From assembly GCF_014191775.1 (NCBI RefSeq), contig NZ_JACHXA010000010.1, positions 62,001 to 126,000 on the forward strand: a DNA stretch of 64,000 nt. Direction: 5' to 3'. Positions 3,433-46,040 of the stretch are shown here, in pieces; position 1 is the first letter of the stretch, and every line of letters begins with the position of its first letter. The notes below the pieces were generated by a model. That model made no database searches. It was not told where the DNA came from and saw only the letters and a program-made list of their open reading frames with translations. This DNA is from Limibacillus halophilus (lineage in GTDB: Bacteria > Pseudomonadota > Alphaproteobacteria > Kiloniellales > CECT-8803). The translations under genes were made by a program, and so were the position numbers.

Positions 3433-4398
3433 TCAGCGCCGGTCGCCCTTACCGTAGTGAGCTTCGATTCGTGCTTGAACCATTTCGAAGCAGATCGACA
3501 TGGCCCAGTATACGAGCGATGCGGTGATGAGCATTTCCAGGTGCTTGAACTCTGCCCGGCCTTGCGTTTTGGCAAGAAACGTCAGCTCCCAAACGCCGAC
3601 AACCGAAACCAAGGAGGAATCCTTCAGCATGGCGATGAACTGATTGCCCGTCGGCGGCACTATCAACTTCATGGCTTGAGGCAGCACGATCTTACGCATG
3701 ATCACCACATGCTTCAGCCCCAGCGCCGAGGCAGCCTCGTATTGACCCTGGGCGACGCCGATGATTCCGGCCCTGAAAATCTCCGCCATGTAAGCGCCGT
3801 AGCAAAGCGAGAGCGCCGCGATTCCCGCCGGCACGGGATCCACGACGAAACCCATCTGCGGCAGCCCGATATAGATCAGATAGATCTGCATCAGTAACGG
3901 CAGGCCGCGAAAAAAGGAGATGTAGAAGGACGATATGCCGTAGGCGATTGGATTTTTCGACAGCTTGGCCAGCGCCGCAACTAACGCAATGACGCAGGCA
4001 ATGGCGATTGAGACGAGCGAGATATAGATCGTCGTGAAGGCGCCCTGCGTGATCAGGAAGCCGACCTTTTTGCCGATAAAACTGTAGCTAAGGTCGAAGG
4101 AATAGAAAAAAGCCATGAAGAGGACAAACAGTTGCCCCCAAACGAGCGGTAAGCGCACGCGCTTTGGCAGCAAACCGACAATGATAGCATCGAGCCAGAT
4201 TAAGGCCGTGACCACCAGCCCGCAGGCAAAGCGGCCCCATAAACCGCTTTCGCCCGGCTCGCCAATGGCCGGGCGGAGGAATTCGCCGATCATGGTGTCG
4301 CGGAGATCGACCAGCGCAAAGAGAAAGACACCGAACCAATAGCCGATCCAACGGCGCGCCAGCGGCCTTTCGAATAAAGTAAAGACGGAATCCATCAT
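3433..4398 (-). CDS. Polar amino-acid ABC transporter permease with N-terminal extension
   Basis: Inner-membrane subunit of a PAAT-family importer (HisM/GlnP type). The C-terminal 210 residues carry the core fold: GAFTTIYISLVS, FRGLPLLMQIYLIY and the EAA loop that contacts the ATPase (EAASALGLKHVVIMRKIVLPQA). About 110 residues with some four extra hydrophobic helices precede it, so it is longer than the usual 220-240 residues. I chose the ATG at 4398; the frame is open to a TTG at 4440, whose ribosome site is too close. It lies downstream of the binding-protein gene in the same direction, about 100 bases away. No ATPase gene is present in the window. A basic amino acid or trimethyllysine as substrate is suggested only by the neighbouring aminotransferase and dioxygenase. 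Confidence 0.88.
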   Translation of the reverse strand: MMDSVFTLFERPLARRWIGYWFGVFLFALVDLRDTMIGEFLRPAIGEPGESGLWGRFACGLVVTALIWLDAIIVGLLPKRVRLPLVWGQLFVLFMAFFYSFDLSYSFIGKKVGFLITQGAFTTIYISLVSIAIACVIALVAALAKLSKNPIAYGISSFYISFFRGLPLLMQIYLIYIGLPQMGFVVDPVPAGIAALSLCYGAYMAEIFRAGIIGVAQGQYEAASALGLKHVVIMRKIVLPQAMKLIVPPTGNQFIAMLKDSSLVSVVGVWELTFLAKTQGRAEFKHLEMLITASLVYWAMSICFEMVQARIEAHYGKGDRR

Positions 4399-4498
4399 GA
4401 AACGGCCGCCGACGCTGGGCAGGCGGCAACGCCTTGCCAAGCTCCATAGCCCGGCAAGGACGCTGCACCCTGCGTTCGGTTCTTGATCACACCACCTG

Positions 4499-5332
4499 TC
4501 ACTTTACGGTGGTGTAGTCGACGCCGTACCACTTCTCGGAGAGAGCCGCCAACGTGCCATCGTCATGCATCGCTTGAACGGCCTCTGCGATCTTGGCATT
4601 GAATTCGTCGTCGCCTTTATCGGTCGCGACGGCCAACGGCTCGTAGAAGCCCGGTTCACCGACGACCCGCAGGGGATAGTTGTTCTTGATGGCCTCCATG
4701 ATCGTCGGCAGAGCCGACATCACTGCGTCCAAACGAGTGCCGTCACCAAGACGGAGATCGTCGAAGGCATTGGTATCGGTCTCATACGACCGGATTTCTC
4801 CAGCATCTACATCATAGGTGAACTCTGGTGTGCCGACGGCATCAATAACCAGGTTCTTGTTCAAATAAGCCTCGTAGGTACAACCGCCGCATACACCGAT
4901 CGTCTTGCCATTGAGATCGGCCAGCGATTGCGCGCTGCTGTCTTTATGCACGGCGAATGCCGCCGGTACGTAGTAGTAGATTGCAGGGAAGTCGAGCACC
5001 TCGGCGCGCTGGGTCGTTGGCGTCATTGAGCCGACCGACATGTCCCAGCGGCCCTGCCAGTTTCCAGCGGTAATCACCTCCCAAGAAGGCGTGATGATCT
5101 TCAGCTCCACGCCCAACCGCTTTGCGATCTCGCGGCCCACGTCGACGTCAAAGCCATCCATTTCGTTATTATCGTTCAGGAAAGATTGCGGCGGATAGGC
5201 CGGATCGGAAGACATGACAAGTTGCTTTTCGGCCATTACCCGGTCCAGCGTAGCGCCGGCAAAAGCCACAATTGGTATCAAAACAAGCCCTGCTGCAAAC
5301 AGACTCGCTGATATGAATCCTGTAACTTTCAT
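4499..5332 (-). CDS. Periplasmic amino-acid-binding protein of an ABC transporter
   Basis: Cluster-F (SBP_bac_3) solute-binding protein of 277 residues with a classical signal peptide (cleavage near AFA|GA, residue 25). The ligand-site pattern of the polar amino-acid family is seen: SSDPAYPPQSF, MDGFDVDVGREIAKRLG, GSMTPTTQRAEVLDF (the arginine normally holds the alpha-carboxylate) and LDAVMSALP (the aspartate normally holds the alpha-amino group). CGGCT contains two close cysteines, unusual for the group. It is the first gene of a binding-protein/permease pair and is transcribed away from the aminotransferase gene at 5517. Their shared 184-base promoter region contains a dyad resembling the TetR operator at 7382, so it could belong to the same regulon. 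Confidence 0.9.
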   Translation of the reverse strand: MKVTGFISASLFAAGLVLIPIVAFAGATLDRVMAEKQLVMSSDPAYPPQSFLNDNNEMDGFDVDVGREIAKRLGVELKIITPSWEVITAGNWQGRWDMSVGSMTPTTQRAEVLDFPAIYYYVPAAFAVHKDSSAQSLADLNGKTIGVCGGCTYEAYLNKNLVIDAVGTPEFTYDVDAGEIRSYETDTNAFDDLRLGDGTRLDAVMSALPTIMEAIKNNYPLRVVGEPGFYEPLAVATDKGDDEFNAKIAEAVQAMHDDGTLAALSEKWYGVDYTTVK

Positions 5333-5483
5333 TACTTCATCTCCCTATCGTTGTCTCTTTTCGATGGTAAGACTGAACACAATCGCTTGTGGCGAAATTC
5401 AGCTCCACAGTTGCCCTAATCATGGAGTAAGTTCGCGAAAATCGCGCGAGCTTTTTTCCCAAGCAGTCGTTAGATTAAACTTC

Positions 5484-5499
5484 TTGATCATTCGTACAA
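5484..5499. promoter_or_regulatory. Imperfect TetR-type operator TTGATC-N4-GTACAA
   Basis: The dyad TTGATC-ATTC-GTACAA lies 17 bases before the aminotransferase start, inside the region shared with the divergent amino-acid importer genes. Spacer, right half and the following CAAG are identical to the perfect dyad TTGTAC-ATTC-GTACAA upstream of the TetR gene at 7382-7397; two bases of the left half differ. A repeat of 14 bases (ATTCGTACAACAAG) at two promoters 1.9 kb apart is best read as a shared regulator site. Confidence 0.65.
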
Positions 5500-5516
5500 C
5501 AAGAAAACGGTAGACC

Positions 5517-6728
5517 ATGTCACTTGCAAAGAGCGCCCGGCAAGGTACGGACCAAAGCCGATTCTCGTCCGTCGTTGAACAGATATCCGGCGAGGGCGCG
5601 CGTGCCTGGGAGATTCATTTTGTAGCCTCACAGCGCTTCGCGGCCGGGCAGGACATTTTGCGTTTGACGATTGGCGATCACGACTTCGACGCTCCGACGG
5701 CAGCGATCGAGGCAACCGTGGCAGCGCTTCGGTCCGGTCGCCACCACTATACCCGTGCGGGCGGCGAGTTACCCTTGCGCGATGCTGTCGCACGGTGGCA
5801 GTCCAAGTTGAATGGCCAACGCCTGTCACAGGAAAATGTCGTTGTTCTGCCGGGCGCACAGTCGGCACTTTACACGGGCGCGCGCTGCCTGTTCCAAGCG
5901 GGTGACAGCATCATCGTTCCTGACCCGATGTACGCCACTTATGAAGCAACGCTCCGGGCGAGCGGCGCCGAGGTGCGGCGCGTCCCACTACACCCTGAGA
6001 ACGCGTGGCGGTTGGATCCACAGGATGTTGCGCACGCGATCGACAACAGTGTTCGCGGGATCGTTCTGACGTCGCCCCACAACCCAACCGGCGCGCTGAT
6101 CGACGCGGAAAGCCTTGATGCCATCGCTCAACTCGCGCGTGATCATGACCTCTGGATCATAAGCGACGAGGTTTACGCGGCGATGGTCTACGAGGGTGAG
6201 CACCGGTCGATTGCAACTTTGCCCGGCATGTCGGACCGCACGTTGGTTCTGGGTTCGCTTTCCAAATCCCACGCCATGCCCGGTTGGCGTATTGGCTGGG
6301 GCGCGGGTCCGGCAGACCTGATCGAACACATGATTCAGCTTTCAAGCTGCATGTTCTTCGGCCAACCGCCCTTTGCCCAGGACGGCGCGCTAGAGGCCAT
6401 CGAAAGCAGCGCTGATACCGCCGTGTGGATACGCGACCTCTATAGGGTGCGCCGGGACCGGTTTTGCGATCAGGTGGCGAAGATTCCCAGATTGTCCTTT
6501 CAACGGCCTGCGGCTGGCATGTTCGTGATGCTCGACGTTCGCCAAACCGGTGTTTCAGCGAAAGAATTCGCCTGGGGCCTTTTGGATGCCGAAGGTTTGG
6601 CCCTGATGCCAGGAGAAGGGTTTGGCGACATGGGCAAAGGTCACCTTCGGGTCAGCCTGTCGGTCGATACCGATACCATCGATGATGCCGTGGCACGGTT
6701 GGCCCGCTATACTGGAAAGTTAGCCTGA
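5517..6728 (+). CDS. PLP-dependent aminotransferase, AruH (arginine:pyruvate transaminase)-like
   Basis: Fold-type-I class I/II aminotransferase of 403 residues. PLP-binding residues are in place: N189 in SPHNPTGA, D217 and Y220 in ISDEVYAA, the Schiff-base lysine K250 in SLSKSHAMPGWRIGW, and a C-terminal arginine (LRVSLSV) for the substrate carboxylate. The text is closest to what I recall of Pseudomonas AruH, which transaminates L-arginine, including the stretches GEGARAWEIH, DPMYATYEA and LPGMSDRTLVLGSLSKSHAM. It is monocistronic, overlaps the end of the convergent TetR gene by 9 bases and has an operator-like dyad just upstream. Given the trimethyllysine-dioxygenase-like gene under the same dyad, a cationic amino acid such as arginine, trimethyllysine or hydroxytrimethyllysine is a reasonable but unproven substrate. 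Confidence 0.88.
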   Translation: MSLAKSARQGTDQSRFSSVVEQISGEGARAWEIHFVASQRFAAGQDILRLTIGDHDFDAPTAAIEATVAALRSGRHHYTRAGGELPLRDAVARWQSKLNGQRLSQENVVVLPGAQSALYTGARCLFQAGDSIIVPDPMYATYEATLRASGAEVRRVPLHPENAWRLDPQDVAHAIDNSVRGIVLTSPHNPTGALIDAESLDAIAQLARDHDLWIISDEVYAAMVYEGEHRSIATLPGMSDRTLVLGSLSKSHAMPGWRIGWGAGPADLIEHMIQLSSCMFFGQPPFAQDGALEAIESSADTAVWIRDLYRVRRDRFCDQVAKIPRLSFQRPAAGMFVMLDVRQTGVSAKEFAWGLLDAEGLALMPGEGFGDMGKGHLRVSLSVDTDTIDDAVARLARYTGKLA

Positions 6729-7352
6729 ACGGTTTCCCGTATCGGGGAACGCCCACAGCCGCCCGATCCAATTAAGCACCGTCTGGCAGCCTTCGTCGGC
6801 GGAAAACACCTCGGGGTCAAGACACCATTCCAGCCAAAGGCCGTCGAGCATTGCAGAAAGACTGATCGCCGTCAGCCGGGTGTCGAGTGTAACGCCGCGC
6901 TTTTCCGCCGCCGCGCCGAGCAGCCCCTCCAGCCGCTCGCGATAAGCTGCATAAACCTCCCGATGCATACCGAAAACCCGCGTATCCGTCCTGACGAGGC
7001 TCCAAAAACCGATCCAGACCGCCAACAGGTCGCTGTCCAGAATGGGCGGTTCGAAACTCGCCTTCACGAAAGCCGTCAGACGCGCGTCCGGGTCCGGGCC
7101 TGCGGCGACCAACGCGGCGCCCAGTGTCCTGTCGACAGTTTCTCCAATCTGCCAGTAGGTCTGCGCTATCAGGTCTTCCTTGCCCGCGAAATGATGATTG
7201 ACGAGGCCGGGAGAAACCTCCGCACGCAGCGAGATTTCTCGCACCGACGTGCCCGCCACGCCCAACTCCGCAAGGCATCTCGCAGTTGCCTCGATCAACT
7301 TGCGGCGACGTTCTTCCGGCAAATCGCGGCTGTATTTCGGTTGTCTTTGCAC
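6720..7352 (-). CDS. BetI-like TetR-family transcriptional repressor
   Basis: TetR regulator of 210 residues. The N-terminal HTH spans about residues 15-60 (VREISLRAEVSPGLVNHHFAGK) and the C-terminal half has the BetI_C pattern ending in AMLDGLWLEWCLD. BetI proteins respond to choline; the ligand here may be another trimethylammonium compound. The frame is open to 7409, but I chose the GTG at 7352: it has an AGGGGC ribosome site, and the perfect operator dyad at 7382-7397 then falls in the 5' leader, as expected for autoregulation. It is divergent from the dioxygenase gene and convergent with the aminotransferase gene, so one dyad can control both sides. No betA, betB or choline transporter is nearby, so it is not the betI of a choline operon. 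Confidence 0.88.
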   Translation of the reverse strand: MQRQPKYSRDLPEERRRKLIEATARCLAELGVAGTSVREISLRAEVSPGLVNHHFAGKEDLIAQTYWQIGETVDRTLGAALVAAGPDPDARLTAFVKASFEPPILDSDLLAVWIGFWSLVRTDTRVFGMHREVYAAYRERLEGLLGAAAEKRGVTLDTRLTAISLSAMLDGLWLEWCLDPEVFSADEGCQTVLNWIGRLWAFPDTGNRSG

Positions 7353-7381
7353 CAGAGCCCCTATTCCTCTTGCTTTATTTA

Positions 7382-7397
7382 TTGTACATTCGTACAA
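7382..7397. promoter_or_regulatory. Perfect TetR operator dyad TTGTAC-N4-GTACAA
   Basis: A perfect 6+6 inverted repeat around ATTC in the intergenic region between the divergent TetR gene (start 7352) and the dioxygenase gene (start 7442). The related dyad at 5484-5499 has the same spacer and right half. Size and location fit a TetR-family site repressing both directions. Confidence 0.75.
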
Positions 7398-7441
7398 CAA
7401 GGATATCAATCAGCGCGTCACTATCCCGTGAGGAGCCCGAC

Positions 7442-8575
7442 ATGGGAAGCCTTATCCGTTCAGCAGCACTAGATGCGTCCCTCTGCAATGTCACCTGGAG
7501 CGACGGTCATACGACCGCCTTCCCGGCCCTCTGGTTACGCGACCATTGTGGCTGCCCAGATTGCCTGCATCCGGAAACGCATCAGCGGTTAGTGGATACT
7601 TTCTCGCTACCGGACGATCTGACGCCCCAGGATCCGCAGGTGGCGGACAATGGGCGGGCCTTGATCCTAACTTGGTCGCCGGAGCGCCACAGCAGTCGGT
7701 ACGATGCGGACCTGTTGCGGCGTCTGGCCGATGGCAAAGAACCGACCGATCCCGTGGCAAAGACCCTTTGGGACGCCGCGACGCTTGCCGAAGAAGGCCT
7801 TGGTGAAGTACCGGCGGAAGGCTTTTTATCCGACGATGACCTGTTGGCCGAGGCGCTGACCAAGCTGGACCGGCGCGGCTTTCTGTTCGTGGAAGGTCTC
7901 GATCCAACGCCCGAGGCAACTCAGGCCGTGGCCCGTCGCATCTCCTACATTCGGGAAACGATTTTTGGCGGCTTTTGGGATTTTACCGCCAATATGGAGC
8001 ACAAGGACACAGCGTACACGACCCTGGAGATCGGGCCGCACACGGACGGCACCTACAGCTTCGACGGTCCCGGCTATCAGATGTTCCATTGCCTCGCATT
8101 TGAGGGGACCGGCGGCGAAAGCCTGCTGGTCGATGGCTTCCGCGTCGCCCGGGAAATCCAGGAGCGCGCGCCCGACCTCTATCGGGTCCTCGGCGAAATC
8201 GCCGTGCCAGGCCAGTATCTGGATCACGAACGCGGCGTCCATTTGCTGGCTAAAAGACCGGTGCTGCGCCACGATTCGGACGGCGCGTTAATCCAAGTCA
8301 GCTATAACAATCACGACCGTGCCGCTTTCCTGCCGGACCGGGAGCGACTGGAAGCCTTTTACGAAGGGCTCCGCCTGTTCCATCGCCTAGCCAACGACCC
8401 GGCTTTCCAGATGATCGAGCGCCTGGCCCCCGGCCGCATGTTGATTTTCGACAATTGGCGCACGCTGCACGGCCGCAAGGCCTACCAGGGCAAACGCCGG
8501 CTGGCTGGTGCTTACATCAACAAGGAAGACGTTGAGAGCCGCCTGCGCGTGCTACAGCTCAAAGGCGCTGTCTAA
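7442..8575 (+). CDS. Trimethyllysine-dioxygenase-like Fe(II)/2-oxoglutarate oxygenase
   Basis: Member of the TMLD/BBOX family, 377 residues. N-terminal GBBH-like domain with zinc ligands C36, C38, C41 and H43 (RDHCGCPDCLH); C-terminal TauD fold with iron ligands H200 and D202 (GPHTDGTY) and H343 (FDNWRTLHGR). Within the family it resembles trimethyllysine dioxygenase more than gamma-butyrobetaine dioxygenase: HCLAFEGTGGESLLVDGF and YNNHDRA match what I recall of human TMLHE. TMLD hydroxylates N6-trimethyllysine at carbon 3, the first step of carnitine synthesis. The ATG at 7442 follows GAGGAGC; the longer frame from 7286 would run over the operator and is rejected. The stop lies 4 bases from the end of the convergent quinone-oxidoreductase gene. 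Substrate assignment is inferred. Confidence 0.82.
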   Translation: MGSLIRSAALDASLCNVTWSDGHTTAFPALWLRDHCGCPDCLHPETHQRLVDTFSLPDDLTPQDPQVADNGRALILTWSPERHSSRYDADLLRRLADGKEPTDPVAKTLWDAATLAEEGLGEVPAEGFLSDDDLLAEALTKLDRRGFLFVEGLDPTPEATQAVARRISYIRETIFGGFWDFTANMEHKDTAYTTLEIGPHTDGTYSFDGPGYQMFHCLAFEGTGGESLLVDGFRVAREIQERAPDLYRVLGEIAVPGQYLDHERGVHLLAKRPVLRHDSDGALIQVSYNNHDRAAFLPDRERLEAFYEGLRLFHRLANDPAFQMIERLAPGRMLIFDNWRTLHGRKAYQGKRRLAGAYINKEDVESRLRVLQLKGAV

Positions 8576-38188: not shown

Positions 38189-40660
38189 TCATAGTCGGGT
38201 ACGATCCGCCTTGGGATCGTAGAGTGGTTTGAGCGAGGCTTCAGCCGGGTACCGAACGCCGGCGACCTCGATCTCGTAGTGCGAGGCCAGTTGATCGGCT
38301 GCACTTTCGCCCTCCACACAAGGCACATAGCCCAGCCCGATGGCCCCACCCAGCCAGTGCCCATAGTTGCCGGAGGTCAAGCGGCCTACGATCTTGCCGT
38401 CACGCAGGATCGGCTCGTTATGGAATAGCAAGGGCTCGGGGTCGGTTAGCTTGAACTGCAGCATCCGGCGGCCAACCCCTGTCTGCTTTTTCGCAAGCAC
38501 CGCCTCACGCCCTAGGAAGTCGCCGAAGCAGGACGTCGGCTTGTCTGTTTTGACCGCGAATCCCAGGCCCGCTTCCAGCACATGATCCTCGTCGGTTATG
38601 TCGTGGCCGAAGTGACGGAAAGCCTTTTCGATACGGCAGGAGTCCAGCACATGGAGACCGCAGAGCCGAAGTCCTTGCGACGGCCCTGCCTGAGCTATGC
38701 TGTCGAACACATGACCGGCCATCTCACTGGAGACGTAAAGCTCCCACCCCAACTCACCGACATAGGAAATTCGGTGAGCGCGTGCGATCCCGAGCCCGAT
38801 CTCGATCTGCTGCATGGTCCCAAATGGGAAATCTTCGTTGGAAAGGGATTGCGGTGTCAGGGGTTGCAACAAGTCCCTGGCCTTGGGACCCATAACGCAG
38901 ATTACCGCCTCCCCCGCCGTAACATCGACCGCCACGCAATGCGCCTCGTCCGGGATATTGCGCTTCAACCAAGCCATATCGCGCTGCAATGTCGCGCCCG
39001 GCGTGACCACTAGGAAGCTGGTTTCATCCAGGCGCGTAATGGTCACGTCCGCCTCAATACCGCCATGCCGGTTGAGCCACTGCGTATAAACGATGCCGCC
39101 GGGCTCAACCGCTACGTCGTTGCCGGAAAGACGCTGCAAAACCGCCTCTGCGTCGCGGCCTTCGACCCGTATCTTGCCAAAGGAAGACATATCGAACAGC
39201 CCAACTGCGCTGCGGACGGCCTTGTGCTCCTCTGCGGCATAAGCAAACCAGTTTTGCCGTTTCCAGCTGTAAGTGTATTCGGCTTTGCGGCCCTTCTCGA
39301 TCTCGTCGGGCGGCAGGAACCAGTTGGCCCGCTCCCAGCCGCTTGCTTCGCCGAAACAGGCGCCGCGCGCAGCTAAACGCTCATGCAAGGGCGAGGTGCG
39401 CACGCCCCGCGCAGAGGCATACTGGCGGTAAGGATAGTGATCGGCATAAAGCAACCCCAGCGTCTCCGTGACCCGCTCCTTGAGATACCGCCTGTTGCCC
39501 TGGAAGGGCTGCATTCGGCGGATATCGACATCCCAGAGGTCAAAGGGAGGTTCGCCTGCATTCATCCACTCGGCCAGTGCTTTTCCCGCGCCGCCCGCCG
39601 ATTGAATCCCGATGGAATTGAACCCCGCCGCCACGAAGAAATTATTCAACTCCGGCGCTTCGCCCAACAGATAGCGGTCATCCGGCGTGAAACTTTCCGG
39701 GCCATTGAAGAACGTATGGATACCGGTCGATTCCAGAACCGGAAAGCGGTTCACCGCCTTTTCGAGAATCGGCTCGAAGTGTTCGAAATCCTCGGGCAGC
39801 TGATCGAAGCAGAAATCTTCGGGGATGCCGTCCAGCGCCCAAGGCTTTGAGACAGGCTCGAACGCACCCAGCAAAATCTTGCCCGCGTCTTCTTTGTAAT
39901 AGGCGCATTCGTCCGGGACCCGCAGAACCGGCAATGTCGATGGCAGGCCGGGCACCGGTTCGGTGACGATGTAGAAGTGCTCGCACGCCTGCAACGGCAC
40001 ATTCACCCCCGCCATGCGGCCAACTTCGCGGCCCCACATGCCGGCGCAGTTCACGACATACTCAGCACGGACCTCGCCCTTGTCGGTCGAAACGCCGGTA
40101 ACGCGCCCGGCCTCCTGGTGGATGGCGGTCACTTTGGTATTCTCGAAAATCCTGACCCCCCGGTTGCGCGCACCCTTGGCCAGTGCCAGCGCGATGTTGG
40201 CCGGATCGCCCTGCCCGTCGGTCGGCAGGAAGACACCGCCCTTCACCCCATCGAGATTTATGTATGGGTGCTTTTCAAGACATTGCTCCGGTGACAGGAC
40301 GTCCGCCCGCAAACCAAAGGTCGCCGCCATTGATGCGCCGCGCTTTAGCTCCTCGAAACGATCATCGCTCAAAGCCAGGGCTAGCGAGCCGCGCTGGCGA
40401 AGCCCGGTCGCAACCTCTGTTTCCTCTTCCAAGGTGGCATACAATTCGGCGGTATACTTGGCTAGCTGGGTCATGTTGTAGGATGCGCGAAGCTGCCCGA
40501 TCAGCCCCGCCGCGTGCCAGGTGGTCCCACTGGTGAGTTGTTTGCGTTCCAACAGTATGACGTCCCGCCAACCGAGCTTGGCCAGGTGATAGGCAACGGA
40601 ACAGCCAATCACGCCGCCACCGATAATGACCGCTCGCGCTGACCCGGGAAAATCGTTCAT
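38189..40660 (-). CDS. DMGDH/sarcosine-dehydrogenase-like flavoprotein with GcvT domain (copy 1)
   Basis: 823 residues. FAD-binding DAO domain (1-380; AVIIGGGVIGCSVAYHLAKLG), with the covalent-flavin histidine motif GTTWHAAGL; FAO middle domain (about 380-440); GCV_T folate-binding domain (about 440-820; GELGWELYVSSEMAGHVFD, GHWLGGAIGLGYV). Enzymes of this build oxidise an N-methyl group and pass the one-carbon unit to tetrahydrofolate. Its start lies 12 bases after the stop of copy 2. With the MttB homolog it suggests successive demethylation of a betaine to glycine. Dimethylglycine, sarcosine or a longer N-methyl amine are all possible. Confidence 0.88.
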   Translation of the reverse strand: MNDFPGSARAVIIGGGVIGCSVAYHLAKLGWRDVILLERKQLTSGTTWHAAGLIGQLRASYNMTQLAKYTAELYATLEEETEVATGLRQRGSLALALSDDRFEELKRGASMAATFGLRADVLSPEQCLEKHPYINLDGVKGGVFLPTDGQGDPANIALALAKGARNRGVRIFENTKVTAIHQEAGRVTGVSTDKGEVRAEYVVNCAGMWGREVGRMAGVNVPLQACEHFYIVTEPVPGLPSTLPVLRVPDECAYYKEDAGKILLGAFEPVSKPWALDGIPEDFCFDQLPEDFEHFEPILEKAVNRFPVLESTGIHTFFNGPESFTPDDRYLLGEAPELNNFFVAAGFNSIGIQSAGGAGKALAEWMNAGEPPFDLWDVDIRRMQPFQGNRRYLKERVTETLGLLYADHYPYRQYASARGVRTSPLHERLAARGACFGEASGWERANWFLPPDEIEKGRKAEYTYSWKRQNWFAYAAEEHKAVRSAVGLFDMSSFGKIRVEGRDAEAVLQRLSGNDVAVEPGGIVYTQWLNRHGGIEADVTITRLDETSFLVVTPGATLQRDMAWLKRNIPDEAHCVAVDVTAGEAVICVMGPKARDLLQPLTPQSLSNEDFPFGTMQQIEIGLGIARAHRISYVGELGWELYVSSEMAGHVFDSIAQAGPSQGLRLCGLHVLDSCRIEKAFRHFGHDITDEDHVLEAGLGFAVKTDKPTSCFGDFLGREAVLAKKQTGVGRRMLQFKLTDPEPLLFHNEPILRDGKIVGRLTSGNYGHWLGGAIGLGYVPCVEGESAADQLASHYEIEVAGVRYPAEASLKPLYDPKADRTRL

Positions 40661-40672
40661 TCGAAATCTCTC

Positions 40673-43111
40673 CTAACTCTTCAATCGACTATTGCTCGGG
40701 TCGTAGAGCGGTTCGCTCCCGACCACGGCTGAAAAACGCTCGCCAAAAATATCGACTTCCAGGGCGGTGCCTTCGACCGCCAAATCACGGCGCACATAGG
40801 AAAGCGCAATCGACTTGCCGATACGGTGCCCGTAGCCGCCCGAAGTAACGAGCCCGACCCGCTCGCCATCCTTCCAGATCGTCGCCAGATAGGGCGCATC
40901 CGCAGTCCCAGCATCGACGATCAGCGGCACGAAACGCTCGCTTGGCCCCTTCTGCTTTTCCTGGAGCAGGGCGTCGCGCCCGACGAACGCTGCCTTGTCG
41001 AGCTTGACGAAACGGTCCAGCGCACCCGCCAGCGGAGAGAAGTCCGTGGAAAGGTCTTCCTTCCAGGATCGGTAACACTTCTCCAATCGCATTGCGTTCA
41101 GAGCATAGATGCCAAAGTCACGGATGCCTTCGGCCTCACCTGCCGTCCAGAGCGCTTGGTAAACGCCGACCATGTACTCGTTCGGCAGGTGAATTTCCCA
41201 GCCCAACTCGCCGGCGTAACTGACCCGGATCGCGCGCCCACGAGCCATCCCGATCACGATCGGCTGGTGGCTTAACCAAGGGAAGTTCTCGCTGGAAAGG
41301 TCGTTCTCGCAAACCTGGGTCAGCACGGCGCGGCTCTTGGGACCCGTCAAAACCAGAGTGCCCCAAGCCGCCGTCACGTTATCGATCTTGATACCGGAAT
41401 CAGCCGGCAAGTGCGCCAGCAGCCAGTCCCGGTCATGCCATTCAGCCCCTGACGCCGTCATCAGCCAGAAGTGATCCTCGGCAAAACGCGTTACCGTCAT
41501 TTCGGTCAGGATGCGACCGGATTTGGTTGCAAAGTAGACCAGCCCGATCCGCCCGGGTTTGGGCAACGCGCCGGTGATCAGATCTTCCAGCCAAGCGGCG
41601 GCACCGTCGCCGGAAACCTCGAAGCGTGCAAAGCCAGGGAGATCGAGAATGCCAACCGCCTCCTGCACGGCCTTGCATTCCTCGCCGACGGCATCGAACC
41701 AATTAGTCCGGTGAAAGGAGAGTTGGTTTTCGGCTTCGTCCTTACCGGCTCTCGGGAACCAGCAGGCGCGTTCCCATCCGGCCCGCGCACCGAAGACGGC
41801 ACCCTTGGCCCGGAGCGTTTCATAGAGGGGTGAGGTCTTGGCGGGGCGTCCCGCGGGCCGTTCCTCGTTGGGATAACCGATGGCATATTCACGTTGATAA
41901 AGCTCTACGGCCTTGGCGCGGGTATATTCTTTGGTAACGTAGCCGGTGAACCGTCTTGGGTCGATCGACCACATATCCCATTCGGTCTCGCCCTCGACGA
42001 CCCACTCCGCCAGGACCTTGCCCGCGCCACCGCCCTGAGTGATGCCAAAGGAGAAGACGCAAGCTTCGAAGGCGTTGGGCACGCCGGGCATGGGTCCGAC
42101 CAGCGGATTGCCGTCCGGTGTGTAAGGTATCGGGCCGTTGATGACTTTCTGTATGCCTGCCTTGCCCAGGATCGGCACGCGGCGGCAGGCATCCTCGATA
42201 TAGAATTCCAATCGCTCCAAGTCGTCCGGATAAAGCTGGAAGGAAAAATCCTCGGGCATCGGATCGTTCTCGTTGACCCAATGCGGCGTCGCTTGCCACT
42301 CGTAGGGACCCAGGATCAAGCCGTCGCGTTCCTGACGCAGGTAATAGGAAATATCGGGATCGCGCAGCAATGGCACTTTCCCATTGAGCGCAGCCAGTTC
42401 CGGCACCGACTCTGTGACAAGATACTGATGCGCCATCGCGACGCTGGGAACGTCGCGCCCAAAGAAACGACCGACCTCTGCGGCCCTGTAACCTGCTGCG
42501 TTCACAACCTTCTCGCAGCGAATGCTGCCCTGCGCCGTGATCACTTCCCACTCGCCCGAAGCGAGGCGGCGCACATCCGTAACCGGCGCAAAGCGGATAA
42601 TCTTGGCACCCAGATCGCGCGCGCCCTTAGCAAAGGCCTGGGTAAGCTGGGCCGGGTCGATATCGCCATCGGTGGGATCCCAGACGCCACCGAGAATATC
42701 GTGGGTTTCAAGAAAAGGGTGGGCGGCGCGCATCTCTTCGGTCGTCATCATATCGAAGTCGATGCCCTGGTGGCGCGCCATGCCGACCACGTGTTGAAAC
42801 TCCTCCATGCGGTCCTTGCTGTGGGCCAGCCGGATCGAACCTGTATTGTGGTAGTTCATCGGATAGTCCACCTCGTCGGCGAGACGGGTGTAGAGCGCGG
42901 TCGAATAGCGCTGCATCTTCATGATAGACCAGGAACCGGAGAAGCTTGGACAGTTGCCGGCAGCGTGCCAGGTCGAACCGGAGGTCAACTCGTTCTTCTC
43001 CAGCAGCACGCAGTCACTCCAACCCATCTTGGCTATGTGGTATAGGCTGGAGCAGCCAACGACACCGCCACCGATGATCACGACACGGGCATGGGATGGA
43101 AGTTGGGCCAT
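40673..43111 (-). CDS. DMGDH/sarcosine-dehydrogenase-like flavoprotein with GcvT domain (copy 2)
   Basis: 812 residues, same architecture as copy 1 and plainly a paralog of it: VVIIGGGVVGCSSLYHIAKMG, flavin histidine in GSTWHAAGN, GcvT part with GELGWEIHLPNEYMVGVYQ and GYGHRIGKSIALSYV. After WHAAG it reads NCPSFSGSW where copy 1 and typical DMGDH have GLxxxLR, so the active-site lining differs and the two copies probably take different N-methyl substrates. Follows the XRE-cupin regulator gene by 23 bases. Confidence 0.88.
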   Translation of the reverse strand: MAQLPSHARVVIIGGGVVGCSSLYHIAKMGWSDCVLLEKNELTSGSTWHAAGNCPSFSGSWSIMKMQRYSTALYTRLADEVDYPMNYHNTGSIRLAHSKDRMEEFQHVVGMARHQGIDFDMMTTEEMRAAHPFLETHDILGGVWDPTDGDIDPAQLTQAFAKGARDLGAKIIRFAPVTDVRRLASGEWEVITAQGSIRCEKVVNAAGYRAAEVGRFFGRDVPSVAMAHQYLVTESVPELAALNGKVPLLRDPDISYYLRQERDGLILGPYEWQATPHWVNENDPMPEDFSFQLYPDDLERLEFYIEDACRRVPILGKAGIQKVINGPIPYTPDGNPLVGPMPGVPNAFEACVFSFGITQGGGAGKVLAEWVVEGETEWDMWSIDPRRFTGYVTKEYTRAKAVELYQREYAIGYPNEERPAGRPAKTSPLYETLRAKGAVFGARAGWERACWFPRAGKDEAENQLSFHRTNWFDAVGEECKAVQEAVGILDLPGFARFEVSGDGAAAWLEDLITGALPKPGRIGLVYFATKSGRILTEMTVTRFAEDHFWLMTASGAEWHDRDWLLAHLPADSGIKIDNVTAAWGTLVLTGPKSRAVLTQVCENDLSSENFPWLSHQPIVIGMARGRAIRVSYAGELGWEIHLPNEYMVGVYQALWTAGEAEGIRDFGIYALNAMRLEKCYRSWKEDLSTDFSPLAGALDRFVKLDKAAFVGRDALLQEKQKGPSERFVPLIVDAGTADAPYLATIWKDGERVGLVTSGGYGHRIGKSIALSYVRRDLAVEGTALEVDIFGERFSAVVGSEPLYDPSNSRLKS

Positions 43112-43134
43112 GGTCGCTTTTTCCTCTTCTTTGA

Positions 43135-43728
43135 TCAGTACACCGGCGGAGCGATCACCCAGATCACCACCGCCGGTTCATCATGGGGATTTGCCCAGCG
43201 ATGCGTTTCCCCCTTGAATCGGAAACTGTCGCCGGGATTGAGGTGGAATGAGCGTTCGCCGATCCACAAATCGAGCCGGCCAGCAACCAAATAGCCGGCT
43301 TCCTCGGTGGGACGCAGCGCCGGTTCCGGCAATGCGGATCCAGGTTCGAACACGCTCCGGAAAATCTCGAAGCTGCCCCCCAGGTCAGGCGACAGCAATT
43401 CCTCTAGCAACCCATCCTTGCGGTCGCCCAGAACACGGCGCGACTGGGCGCGCACGATGTAACCGCGTTCTTCCTGCGGCGCCGCGTCGTTCTGGAAAAA
43501 GAAACCGAGCGGTAGTCCAAAAAGGGCCGCAATGTGCCGGAGGTCGGCGATCGAAGGTTCCGACAAGCCCCGTTCGACCTGGCTAACCCAGCCAACCGAG
43601 CGCCCTAGCTTTGAGGCAATATCCTGGAGCGTGAGGCCGCGGGCCCGCCGCAAGGCGCGCAAATCCGCGCCGACGCCACCCTTTTCCGCCTCGAAGGTCG
43701 CTTTGTCCAAAGCGCGGCTCCCTGCCAC
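43135..43728 (-). CDS. XRE-cupin transcriptional regulator
   Basis: 197 residues: XRE-type HTH (about 22-76; LTLQDIASKLGRSVGWVSQVERG) and a C-terminal cupin_2 sensor (about 118-195; LPEPALRPTEEAGYLVAGRLDLWIG, LNPGDSFRFKGETHRWANP). First gene of the operon with the DMGDH and MttB genes, and so the likely regulator of that demethylation pathway; the cupin would bind the inducer. The frame starts with GTG at 43728 without a ribosome site; a TTG at 43710 behind CAGGGAGCC is a good alternative. Confidence 0.9.
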   Translation of the reverse strand: MAGSRALDKATFEAEKGGVGADLRALRRARGLTLQDIASKLGRSVGWVSQVERGLSEPSIADLRHIAALFGLPLGFFFQNDAAPQEERGYIVRAQSRRVLGDRKDGLLEELLSPDLGGSFEIFRSVFEPGSALPEPALRPTEEAGYLVAGRLDLWIGERSFHLNPGDSFRFKGETHRWANPHDEPAVVIWVIAPPVY

Positions 43729-43754
43729 ATGAAATTTTTTTAGATTTTTTCATG
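43728..43754. promoter_or_regulatory. Inverted repeat CATGAAA-N13-TTTCATG upstream of the XRE-cupin gene
   Basis: A perfect 7-base inverted repeat in very AT-rich DNA directly at the 5' end of the regulator gene; CATGAAA recurs directly at 43751-43757, so the two copies in the same orientation are 23 bases apart. Location and symmetry fit an autoregulatory operator of the XRE-cupin protein. Confidence 0.5.
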
Positions 43755-43796
43755 AAAATTTCTGTCGATGCAAGAATTTTCACCATACTGATGCGA

Positions 43797-44705
43797 CTAC
43801 GCATGCCCGGCGGTCTCCTCCAGGATCCAATCGCGCAGTATCCGCGCCGAAGCCGAGAGTCGCCGACCTTGAGGAACAAGCAGATAAAAGGAATCGCTGG
43901 CCAGGATTGCCTTTCCAATGCCCAAAGCTTCCAGGCGGCCGGACTGGACGGCCGCCGCGGCCATCCAGCGCCGTAGCAGAGCAACACCCTGCCCCGCCTC
44001 GCACAATGCGAAAGCGGTAGCCACGGTATCGACTTCCAATACAGCCGGCGCCGCATTCGCCGAAGAGAGCTCAATCTTGGATTGGGCTGCCGACCACTCC
44101 TGCCAACCCTCCCGGTATCCGATAACTTCAATGAGCCGTTGCTGGGATAGCCATTCGCCTTTGTCCCGTTCTTTGGCCGCCATTGCCAAAGCCGGGTTCG
44201 CAAAAGGCTCAAGATAGTCCTCGGTGAGGCGAAACACCTCGTTACCGGGCCATCGGCCGTCGCCATAGCGAATCTCAAGATCGATAGCGGCCTGATCAAA
44301 GTCAGAGGCCCATAAGGTGGTCAGAATGCGGAGCGGCACGGCCGGATGCCGATCCAAGAAACTCGTAATCCTTGGCAGCAACCAGTGGGCTTGAAAAGAC
44401 GCCGTAGCGCGCAACTGCACGCCCTCTTTTTCCCGCCGACCGAAGAGCGCGTCCGTACCGCGTAGCAAGCTCTCGAAGGCCTGCTGGACGACCGGCCTAT
44501 AGGCCTCGCCCGCCTCGGTCAGATTGATACCGCGCGGCAGCCGCTTGAAAAGCGGCCGTCCCAAGCGCTCCTCAAGCAAGCGCACCTGTTGACTGACTGC
44601 AGAAGGTGTCACGCCCAGCTCCTGCGCCGCACCGACAAAGCTGCCATTGCGCGCGGCCGCGTCGAAGGCCCGTAACCAGATCAAGGGGGGTAAGGTAATA
44701 CTCAT
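43797..44705 (-). CDS. LysR-family regulator, GcvA-like
   Basis: 302 residues. N-terminal HTH (about 8-66; WLRAFDAAARNGSFVGAAQELGVTPSAVSQQVRLLEE) and a C-terminal substrate-binding domain with the GcvA-type stretches LRATASFQAHWLLPRI and ALCEAGQGVALLRRWMA. Divergent from the BBOX-like gene, which it probably controls; GcvA-like regulators often govern betaine or glycine-related enzymes. Its 3' end is 68 bases from the XRE-cupin start in the same direction. Confidence 0.9.
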   Translation of the reverse strand: MSITLPPLIWLRAFDAAARNGSFVGAAQELGVTPSAVSQQVRLLEERLGRPLFKRLPRGINLTEAGEAYRPVVQQAFESLLRGTDALFGRREKEGVQLRATASFQAHWLLPRITSFLDRHPAVPLRILTTLWASDFDQAAIDLEIRYGDGRWPGNEVFRLTEDYLEPFANPALAMAAKERDKGEWLSQQRLIEVIGYREGWQEWSAAQSKIELSSANAAPAVLEVDTVATAFALCEAGQGVALLRRWMAAAAVQSGRLEALGIGKAILASDSFYLLVPQGRRLSASARILRDWILEETAGHA

Positions 44706-44717
44706 GACAAAGCCTAG

Positions 44718-44740
44718 CCTTAGTTTAACTTATTCTTAGG
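44718..44740. promoter_or_regulatory. Candidate LysR site CCTTAG-N11-CTTAGG
   Basis: An imperfect dyad (five of six bases symmetric) spaced as in T-N11-A boxes, in the intergenic region between the divergent LysR gene and the gamma-butyrobetaine-dioxygenase-like gene. Found by eye only. Confidence 0.4.
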
Positions 44741-44828
44741 CCAAAGATTAGTCATTTGCTTGCGCCAGGCCAAGCACCGCATCTTCATGGCTAGCTTTGC
44801 GCCCCAACCCACAAGGACCTCGGAAACG

Positions 44829-46040
44829 ATGATCGCCCCAGCAAGCCAAGCCGGTTCGAGCCTCCAAGCGCGCAACGCTCCGCGCCCGGACATGGCCGAC
44901 CCCGCGCCCTATCCATTGGTTTCGAGGCTAGTTGGCCTTGAGGCCACCGACGATGCCGTCAAAGCGCTGTGGGATGACCACCGGGAAAGCCAGTTCCACG
45001 CTGTCTGGCTGCGCGATAACTGCGCCTGCGCTACCTGCCGCCACCCCGCGACCCAGGAGCGGACCTTTTTGCTTCTGGACGCTGAACAGCCAAGCTTGAG
45101 GGCCGCGACGATCCTGCCCGGCGGGCACCTCGAAGCGACCTTTGCCGACGGACACACCTCAAGCTTCGATGCTGGCTGGCTCCGGGCCAAGGCTTACGAT
45201 GCCTGGGCCTTGGCCGAACGCGACCAGCCACCGGTCGAGTGGGCTGCCGACATGGAGATACCAAGGTTTCCTTTCGCCGAGGTGATGATGGGTTCGGAAG
45301 GGCTTGCCCGTTGGCTAAAGGGTTTGCTGGAGACCGGCATAGCCATCGTTACGGAAGCCCCGGCGGAATCGGGACGACTATTCGAAATCGTCAACCGTGT
45401 TCAAAACCCCAAGGAGACCAACTTCGGCACGCTGTTCGAGGTGTTTTCGAAGCCAAAGCCCAATTCAAGCGCTTACACGTCCTTGGGCCTGGAACCGCAC
45501 GCGGATCTGGTTAACTGGGCCTGCCCGCCGGATTTTCAGGCGCTTTTCTGCATCGAGAATAGCACGGGCGGCGGTCGTTCCATTTTCGTCAACGCCATGA
45601 CCGTAACCGAGGCCCTGAGGCTCCAGGACCCGGAAGCCTTCACATTGCTCTCCGAAGTTCCTGTCGAGTTTCGCTTCCAGGATGAAACCTGTGATCTGCG
45701 CCATCTAGCGCCGGTCGTCGAACTGGACCGCCAGGGAAGAATACGGCGCTTACGCTTCAACAACTGGCTGCGCAATCAAACTTGTGCACCGGTGGAGAGC
45801 ATGGCGGCCTGGTACCGTGCCTATGCAAAGCTCTGGAGCCTGATCCGGGATCGCCGCTATCAACTGCGCCCGAGGCTGGCACCCGGCGAGATGGTGATCT
45901 TCGACAATGTCCGCGTCCTGCACGGTCGGGAAGCCTACGACGCGAATGCCGGCCGCCGTAACCTGGAAGGTTGTTACCTGGATCGTGACTGGGTCACAAG
46001 CTGCCTGCGATTGACGGACCGTGAGGCCGCAGCGCTTTAA
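44829..46040 (+). CDS. Gamma-butyrobetaine-dioxygenase-like Fe(II)/2-oxoglutarate oxygenase
   Basis: Paralog of the enzyme at 7442, 403 residues. N-terminal zinc site C65, C67, C70, H72 (RDNCACATCRH); iron ligands H224 and D226 (EPHADLVNW) and H365 (FDNVRVLHGR). Segments VVELDRQGRIRRLRFNN and ARRNLEGCYLDRDWV-like text match what I recall of BBOX1 rather than TMLHE, so hydroxylation of gamma-butyrobetaine to L-carnitine is the best guess. The ATG at 44829 follows a GGA-rich leader; the longest frame uses a TTG at 44760. Divergent from a LysR gene; overlaps the convergent GtrII-like gene by 4 bases. Confidence 0.83.
   Translation: MIAPASQAGSSLQARNAPRPDMADPAPYPLVSRLVGLEATDDAVKALWDDHRESQFHAVWLRDNCACATCRHPATQERTFLLLDAEQPSLRAATILPGGHLEATFADGHTSSFDAGWLRAKAYDAWALAERDQPPVEWAADMEIPRFPFAEVMMGSEGLARWLKGLLETGIAIVTEAPAESGRLFEIVNRVQNPKETNFGTLFEVFSKPKPNSSAYTSLGLEPHADLVNWACPPDFQALFCIENSTGGGRSIFVNAMTVTEALRLQDPEAFTLLSEVPVEFRFQDETCDLRHLAPVVELDRQGRIRRLRFNNWLRNQTCAPVESMAAWYRAYAKLWSLIRDRRYQLRPRLAPGEMVIFDNVRVLHGREAYDANAGRRNLEGCYLDRDWVTSCLRLTDREAAAL

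Follow-up and report, generated by a model that had tools for sequence, protein, structure and literature searches.

A cluster of five genes lies at positions 3433-8575 of a 64,000-nucleotide stretch of the Limibacillus halophilus genome (contig NZ_JACHXA010000010.1, positions 62,001 to 126,000), and this whole stretch is called the window below. An earlier note, made from the sequence alone, proposed that these genes form a module for the use of trimethyllysine. The open reading frames (ORFs) were found where that note placed them, and each of the five proteins is a member of a known family. Two genes on the minus strand encode parts of an ATP-binding cassette (ABC) importer. They are the permease (3433-4440; BPD_transp_1), which is of the amino-acid type with an N-terminal extension and probably starts in reality close to 4395 (MMDSVFTLFERPLARR), and a family-3 substrate-binding protein (4499-5332; SBP_bac_3, PF00497, 113.9 bits). 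A class I/II aminotransferase (5517-6728, plus strand; Aminotran_1_2), a BetI-like TetR repressor (6720-7352, minus strand; TetR_N and TetR_C_6, BetI type) and a trimethyllysine-dioxygenase-like Fe(II)/2-oxoglutarate dioxygenase (7442-8575, plus strand; TauD and GBBH-like_N) follow. The mechanical ORF of the repressor extends up to 7409; the GTG at 7352 was preferred to the TTG at 7409 as its start because the longer frame would overlap the dyad described next. For the dioxygenase the start used is the ATG at 7442, which is preceded by GAGGAG at 7430-7435 and lies within a mechanical ORF that opens at 7286.

The two best matches in the window to a 16-bp dyad of the form TTGTAC-N4-GTACAA are both in this cluster. 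One predicted operator copy (TTGTACATTCGTACAA, no mismatches) is at 7382-7397 in the gap between the repressor and the dioxygenase, and the other (TTGATCATTCGTACAA, two mismatches) is at 5484-5499 in the gap between the binding protein and the aminotransferase, where the promoters diverge. At up to three mismatches the window holds 11 matches versus 8.4 expected, the other nine all having three, and therefore the count by itself is unsurprising. The 15-mer CATTCGTACAACAAG is present in two exact copies in the window and has three matches at up to three mismatches versus 0.93 expected. When the ATTC spacer is included, as in the joint form TTGNWCATTCGTACAA, the two cluster sites are the only perfect matches in the 3.48-Mb genome; at up to two mismatches the genome has seven sites (two exact) versus two for the reversed control. 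A degenerate form of the dyad was not more common than its reversed control in six of 10 genomes, including that of L. halophilus, and is therefore not specific genome-wide.

The dyad was surveyed in the promoter regions of the binding-protein, aminotransferase, TetR and dioxygenase genes at 73 loci, the window included; many of the loci (numbered L below) come from related genomes, and L025, L022 and L020 were omitted as presumed repeat records. It is present in 35 of the 36 loci that have a TetR relative versus four of the 37 that do not. The consensus used includes the variants TTGAAC and TTATAC, which were chosen after a first look at the same loci, and so 35 is an optimistic figure. When only the core of the window itself is used, a site is found in 22 of the 36 loci versus none of the 37. 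Permuted core sets (n=120) reached a mean of 2.5 of the 36 loci and a maximum of 11, and permuted single cores (n=200) had a mean of 0.85 loci, with one reaching 16. A spacing of 4 gives the 35 loci, and every other spacing from 0 to 10 gives at most 11. The promoter regions, which make up 40,551 of the 1,083,133 bases, contain 54 of the 104 dyad sites versus 3.9 expected. Two or more sites are present in 14 loci, and in L143, L144, L151, L168-L171 and L173 dyads stand ahead of the binding protein and again in the repressor/enzyme gap or ahead of the repressor. The conservation of the dyad alongside the TetR gene across related loci is therefore well beyond chance. Judged from these patterns in the sequence, the dyad is very probably the operator of the TetR repressor and the five genes very probably are one regulon. 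The two claims of the earlier note that bear on regulation, namely that the same dyad precedes both regions and that one BetI-like regulator governs them, are supported.

A TetR relative is present in 18 of 27 loci from public genomes that were found by their dioxygenase. In three loci the dioxygenase adjoins another TetR gene, which has a further dyad, TTGTAAGTTCTTACAA, close to it (L009 at 6622, L014 at 6628 and L015 at 6629), which suggests a repressor pair with split operators.

The dioxygenase scores 310.2 bits with the trimethyllysine dioxygenase model TIGR02410, above the cut-off of 268.3, which bears out the label that the earlier note gave it. Two other identities were tried and rejected: TmpA (267 bits, cut-off 400) and gamma-butyrobetaine dioxygenase (BBOX; TIGR02409, 256.2 bits, cut-off 414.75). 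Residue D189 aligns with an Asn in both of these enzymes, Asn191 in BBOX. In the eukaryotic enzyme TMLH, the review PMC7764450 describes Asp231 as homologous to BBOX Asn191 and as thought to give specificity by binding the alpha-ammonium group. Trimethyllysine has a free alpha-ammonium as well as a trimethylammonium group and gamma-butyrobetaine lacks the former, and so D189 suits trimethyllysine. An Asp is present at this position in all 49 sequences (the window included) that are at least about 40% identical, a line that was set after inspection of the table; the remaining 15 of the 64 distinct sequences have Asn (12), Ser (two) or Asp (one). The iron ligands H200, D202 and H343 and the 2-oxoglutarate arginines R345 and R352 are invariant in the alignment and, matched by spacing rather than from the TMLH sequence, correspond to H242-D244-H389, R391 and R398 of TMLH, as given in the same source. 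It also reports mutagenesis in which W221, Y217, Y234, D231 and N334 of TMLH matter for the substrate. The cage of the window enzyme would consist of F175, W179 and Y192, of which the last two match the TMLH cage (Y217, W221 and Y234). Within the 49 sequences Trp179 is kept (Tyr in four), Tyr192 is kept (Ser in one) and Tyr217 is replaced by Phe.

When the dioxygenases of five module relatives were scanned, those of L014, L026 and L085 were above the trimethyllysine cut-off, with that model the best. The predicted structure of the window enzyme, which like that of the binding protein gives the fold and no ligand, superposes over its full length on BBOX1 (Z 38.1, rmsd 2.6, 369 aligned) and on TmpA (Z 38.0, rmsd 2.8, 363 aligned), and its sequence matches BBOX and TmpA at about 160 bits each. 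Taken together, the scores and residues support the assignment of the dioxygenase to the trimethyllysine type rather than to the gamma-butyrobetaine type. Relatives on plasmids were not found at E 1e-60.

Other members of the superfamily are present in the same genome: a TmpA-like protein (L002), a BBOX-like protein in the window (44760-46040) and a weak fourth match (L004). The BBOX-like gene, which has Ser at the specificity position, is near two genes that by eye resemble dimethylglycine/sarcosine dehydrogenases (region 38189-46040). The TmpA-like gene on contig C5 (L002/L221) is followed, again by eye, by HD-domain TmpB-type and phosphatase-like genes, and this set would imply that the bacterium may also use trimethylaminoethylphosphonate. 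In L093 and L094, dioxygenases 53-54% identical to that of the window are near genes that by eye are phosphonate (phn)-like; some clade members may therefore take other trimethylammonium compounds.

Searches with the binding protein found relatives in 17 of 385 genomes at the level of the class (E 1e-70), and at the level of the order in 26 of 61 (E 1e-60). Of these 26 genomes, 14 have the dioxygenase next to the importer and seven have the aminotransferase there; some of the contigs end close to the importer. The window is the only one of the 26 with both enzymes beside the importer; both are also present in L026 and in L099 (the same place as L025). Among the 17 genomes found by the binding protein alone, the dioxygenase is nearby in four, the aminotransferase in four and both in two, a 27% identical aminotransferase 4 kb away in L154 being left out. 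A tally of 42 binding-protein loci contains nine fetched by way of the dioxygenase and is biased to that link. All importer loci except L154, L156 and L167, where none was seen, have a permease relative (47-71% identical) next to the binding-protein gene. ATPases of the importer kind are present elsewhere in the L. halophilus genome, the best of them (C4:175055-175831) being 70% identical to the ATPase adjoining the importer of L153.

The genes that accompany the dioxygenase in other genomes also vary. In L014 (Dongia deserti) and L015 an aldehyde dehydrogenase-type gene directly follows the dioxygenase, which fits a hydroxylase-aldolase-dehydrogenase route. Eight loci have a nearby gene of one protein cluster, whose L090 member, the only one compared with solved structures, scores higher against histamine dehydrogenase (808 bits) than against trimethylamine dehydrogenase (515 bits); in L159, L161 and L162 a gene of this cluster follows the dioxygenase, binding protein and permease genes on the same strand. 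A trimethylamine/histamine-dehydrogenase-type gene, 52% identical to that of L090, is also present in the L. halophilus genome (L219, 15776-17827; C1:421775), about 9 kb from a near-match to the dyad, in a region where, by eye, a TetR-like gene accompanies genes that resemble those of an ABC importer.

The model of the binding protein (pLDDT 89.9) has as its best match in the Protein Data Bank TTC0807 with aminoethylcysteine (Z 28.9, rmsd 2.2, 233 aligned). The Arg that binds the carboxylate, R109, is kept and invariant, as are W84 and Y119, and Y120 and Y156 are nearly so. All 24 pocket positions compared are identical to those of the window in eight of the 14 loci that have only the dioxygenase, and in L099, L026, L147 and L148. 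The other dioxygenase-only loci differ by an Arg at position 208 (four loci), at position 229 (one) or at five positions (L144); five Kiloniella-type aminotransferase loci also differ at five positions.

From the gene set, the dyads, their conservation with the repressor, and the class and residues of the dioxygenase, we predict, with somewhat more confidence than doubt, that the five genes are a regulon with which the cell uses an amino acid that is cationic and carries a trimethylammonium group, most likely free N6,N6,N6-trimethyllysine (TML). Repressor binding, the ligand, the order of the steps, both branches and all later steps are predictions. The BetI-like TetR protein, bound at both dyads, would keep all five genes, its own included, switched off until it binds TML or a product. 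The importer would take in TML, probably using an ATPase encoded elsewhere, and the dioxygenase would hydroxylate it at C3 to 3-hydroxytrimethyllysine. An SHMT-type housekeeping aldolase, also encoded elsewhere, could then yield glycine and trimethylaminobutyraldehyde, which an aldehyde dehydrogenase encoded elsewhere would convert to gamma-butyrobetaine, and general betaine enzymes would complete the breakdown. The aminotransferase may form a second branch, by way of the 2-oxo acid towards delta-valerobetaine, or it may act on a product or recycle a side product.

Several observations weigh against this proposal. None of the cluster genes encodes an aldolase, an aldehyde dehydrogenase or an ATPase, and the aldehyde dehydrogenases of the L. 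halophilus genome are at most 41% identical to the one next to the dioxygenase of Dongia deserti. The position of the TMLH cage Tyr217 is a Phe in 62 of the 64 dioxygenase sequences, including that of the window (Phe175). Two of the five scanned relatives do not score clearly as the trimethyllysine type: the L090 enzyme (247.8 bits) is below that cut-off, and the L144 enzyme scores 306.3 bits with the BBOX model, below its cut-off, versus 305.3 bits with the trimethyllysine model, above its cut-off. The repressor is below the cut-offs of both BetI models (NF001978, 99.6 versus 118; TIGR03384, 95.9 versus 201.3). Three of the five other near-dyad sites in the genome (L218-L220) are all inside coding frames. 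In amino-acid binding proteins an Asp holds the alpha-amine, and A207 of the window protein stands opposite this Asp of AncQR and TTC0807; none of 39 aligned binding proteins has an acidic residue there, and three have an Asp one position earlier. Because aminotransferases act on amino acids, the loss of this Asp is compatible with an amino-acid ligand and does not fix the ligand. L147 is the only one of six aminotransferase-only loci with the pocket of the window, the other five being somewhat different. Finally, the importer has relatives on plasmids (81 records, eight regions viewed), and in seven of the eight regions (L236-L242, from rhizobia and Thalassospira) the proteins, 58-62% identical, have a permease and an ATPase and are preceded by a flavin reductase, an aldehyde dehydrogenase, an LLM flavin monooxygenase and a hydrolase; the eighth region differs. 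The pocket is similar in the four that were compared, and the annotation names no substrate. The presence of importer relatives in flavin-monooxygenase operons would indicate that importers of this family take part in several routes.

Three other explanations were weighed. One is that the cluster handles arginine or some other amino acid of guanidino or cationic character, the importer and aminotransferase being parts of a route of the arginine-transaminase type while the dioxygenase hydroxylates the same compound with its cage around the guanidinium. In support of it, six loci of one Kiloniella-type genus (L151, L168-L171 and L173), which have the importer and repressor, carry a 5-guanidino-2-oxopentanoate decarboxylase relative directly after the aminotransferase. 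The L169 protein scores 760 bits (cut-off 500), those of L151, L171 and L173, assigned by place, are also above the cut-off, and those of L168 and L170 were assigned by BLAST cluster; L148 likewise has a relative (595.9 bits) after its importer genes. A decarboxylase of this kind beside the aminotransferase makes a transamination branch or an arginine-like substrate possible. In addition, GntC, a hydroxyarginine enzyme, is the best NCBIfam model for the aminotransferase (275.6 of 415) among the 25 best of 86 matches listed, none of which reaches its cut-off, and the solved structure nearest to the binding protein has aminoethylcysteine or ornithine as its ligand. However, the trimethyllysine model accepts the dioxygenase, which keeps the alpha-ammonium Asp of TMLH, and the AruI-type decarboxylase family (NF005712) has no match in the L. 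halophilus genome at E 1e-100. We regard an arginine-like substrate as rather unlikely.

We consider it improbable, too, that the compound taken up is a betaine carboxylate lacking a free alpha-amine, such as gamma-butyrobetaine, delta-valerobetaine, carnitine or an alpha-N-methylated amino acid, with a BBOX-like dioxygenase and an aminotransferase that acts on some other compound. A binding protein that has the carboxylate Arg and the conserved aromatic residues and lacks the alpha-amine Asp would suit such a ligand, the L144 dioxygenase is about equal on the two models, and mammalian BBOX hydroxylates delta-valerobetaine according to PMC11773067. Against this, D189 replaces the Asn of BBOX, and the aminotransferase and decarboxylase relatives, which need an alpha-amino acid, adjoin binding proteins with the same residues at the compared pocket positions (L147 and L148). 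Finally, the cluster may be a looser scavenging set, in which the dioxygenase and repressor serve TML, and the importer and aminotransferase are broad amine or amino-acid tools under the same repressor. The free combination of importer, dioxygenase and aminotransferase among the loci, the other partners of the importer family in rhizobia, and the Dongia-type loci that have the repressor and dioxygenase with no importer nearby are all consistent with such a set, but the linkage is recurrent and several lineages have operators at the promoter of the importer (L143, L144, L151, L168-L171 and L173), and we hold this arrangement to be decidedly unlikely. Trimethyllysine is the best single candidate substrate, least surely so for the importer and aminotransferase. 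The earlier note had it explain all five genes at once, which is supported for the dioxygenase and the regulon and is less certain for the importer and aminotransferase, given A207, the other partners and the decarboxylase loci.

The known system closest to the dioxygenase is eukaryotic TMLH (also TMLD), the first enzyme of carnitine biosynthesis, which has the same Fe/2-oxoglutarate ligands, the cage Trp and one cage Tyr, and the alpha-ammonium Asp. The two differ in that TMLH has Tyr217 where the window enzyme has Phe, and that the latter is bacterial and, being under a repressor together with an importer, is probably catabolic, unlike TMLH. BBOX and TmpA have the same fold, but with Asn in place of the Asp. 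The repressor has the TetR_N and TetR_C_6 domains in common with the choline-responsive BetI repressors, but falls short of the BetI cut-offs, and its dyad, with a 4-bp spacer, fronts other genes than that of BetI. The AruH/AruI arginine transaminase pathway joins an aminotransferase and an AruI-family decarboxylase, as the six related loci do, whereas the window has the dioxygenase in the place of the decarboxylase.

Bacterial catabolism of free trimethyllysine with an importer and regulator of its own was called little described in the earlier note, and this agrees with the literature found, where the only route is that of gut bacteria, which turn trimethyllysine into delta-valerobetaine by way of DavB and DavA (PMC11773067). 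The proposed compound is the same, but DavB and DavA are a monooxygenase and an amidase, and neither kind is among the five cluster genes (the rest of the genome was not searched for them). In the open-access literature searched, including the accessible parts of PMC7764450, PMC11773067 and PMC9732360, no description of a bacterial trimethyllysine importer or regulon was found, nor was the combination of a TMLH-type dioxygenase, an importer and an aminotransferase under one TetR operator.

A broader claim, to which we give somewhat less than an even chance, is that a dedicated trimethyllysine regulon exists in Alphaproteobacteria and, as judged by the repressor-dioxygenase pair, in some Gammaproteobacteria. 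The eukaryote-type first enzyme of the carnitine pathway would be its catabolic entry, and the importer would be under the same TetR operator, as would, in other branches, a transaminase/decarboxylase route whose products are of the delta-valerobetaine type. Trimethyllysine is freed at every turnover of methylated proteins, and in the literature found its bacterial fate is described only for the gut producers of delta-valerobetaine. If the claim is true, bacteria that have a TMLH under a dedicated repressor and together with an importer would use the first step of the carnitine pathway for feeding; there would be a sensor for trimethyllysine, and environmental bacteria would be tied to methylamine release. 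Carriers of the regulon would then consume free trimethyllysine from proteins and, in the sea, brown-algal laminine, which is trimethyllysine. One of the related loci, L022, is from Kiloniella laminariae.

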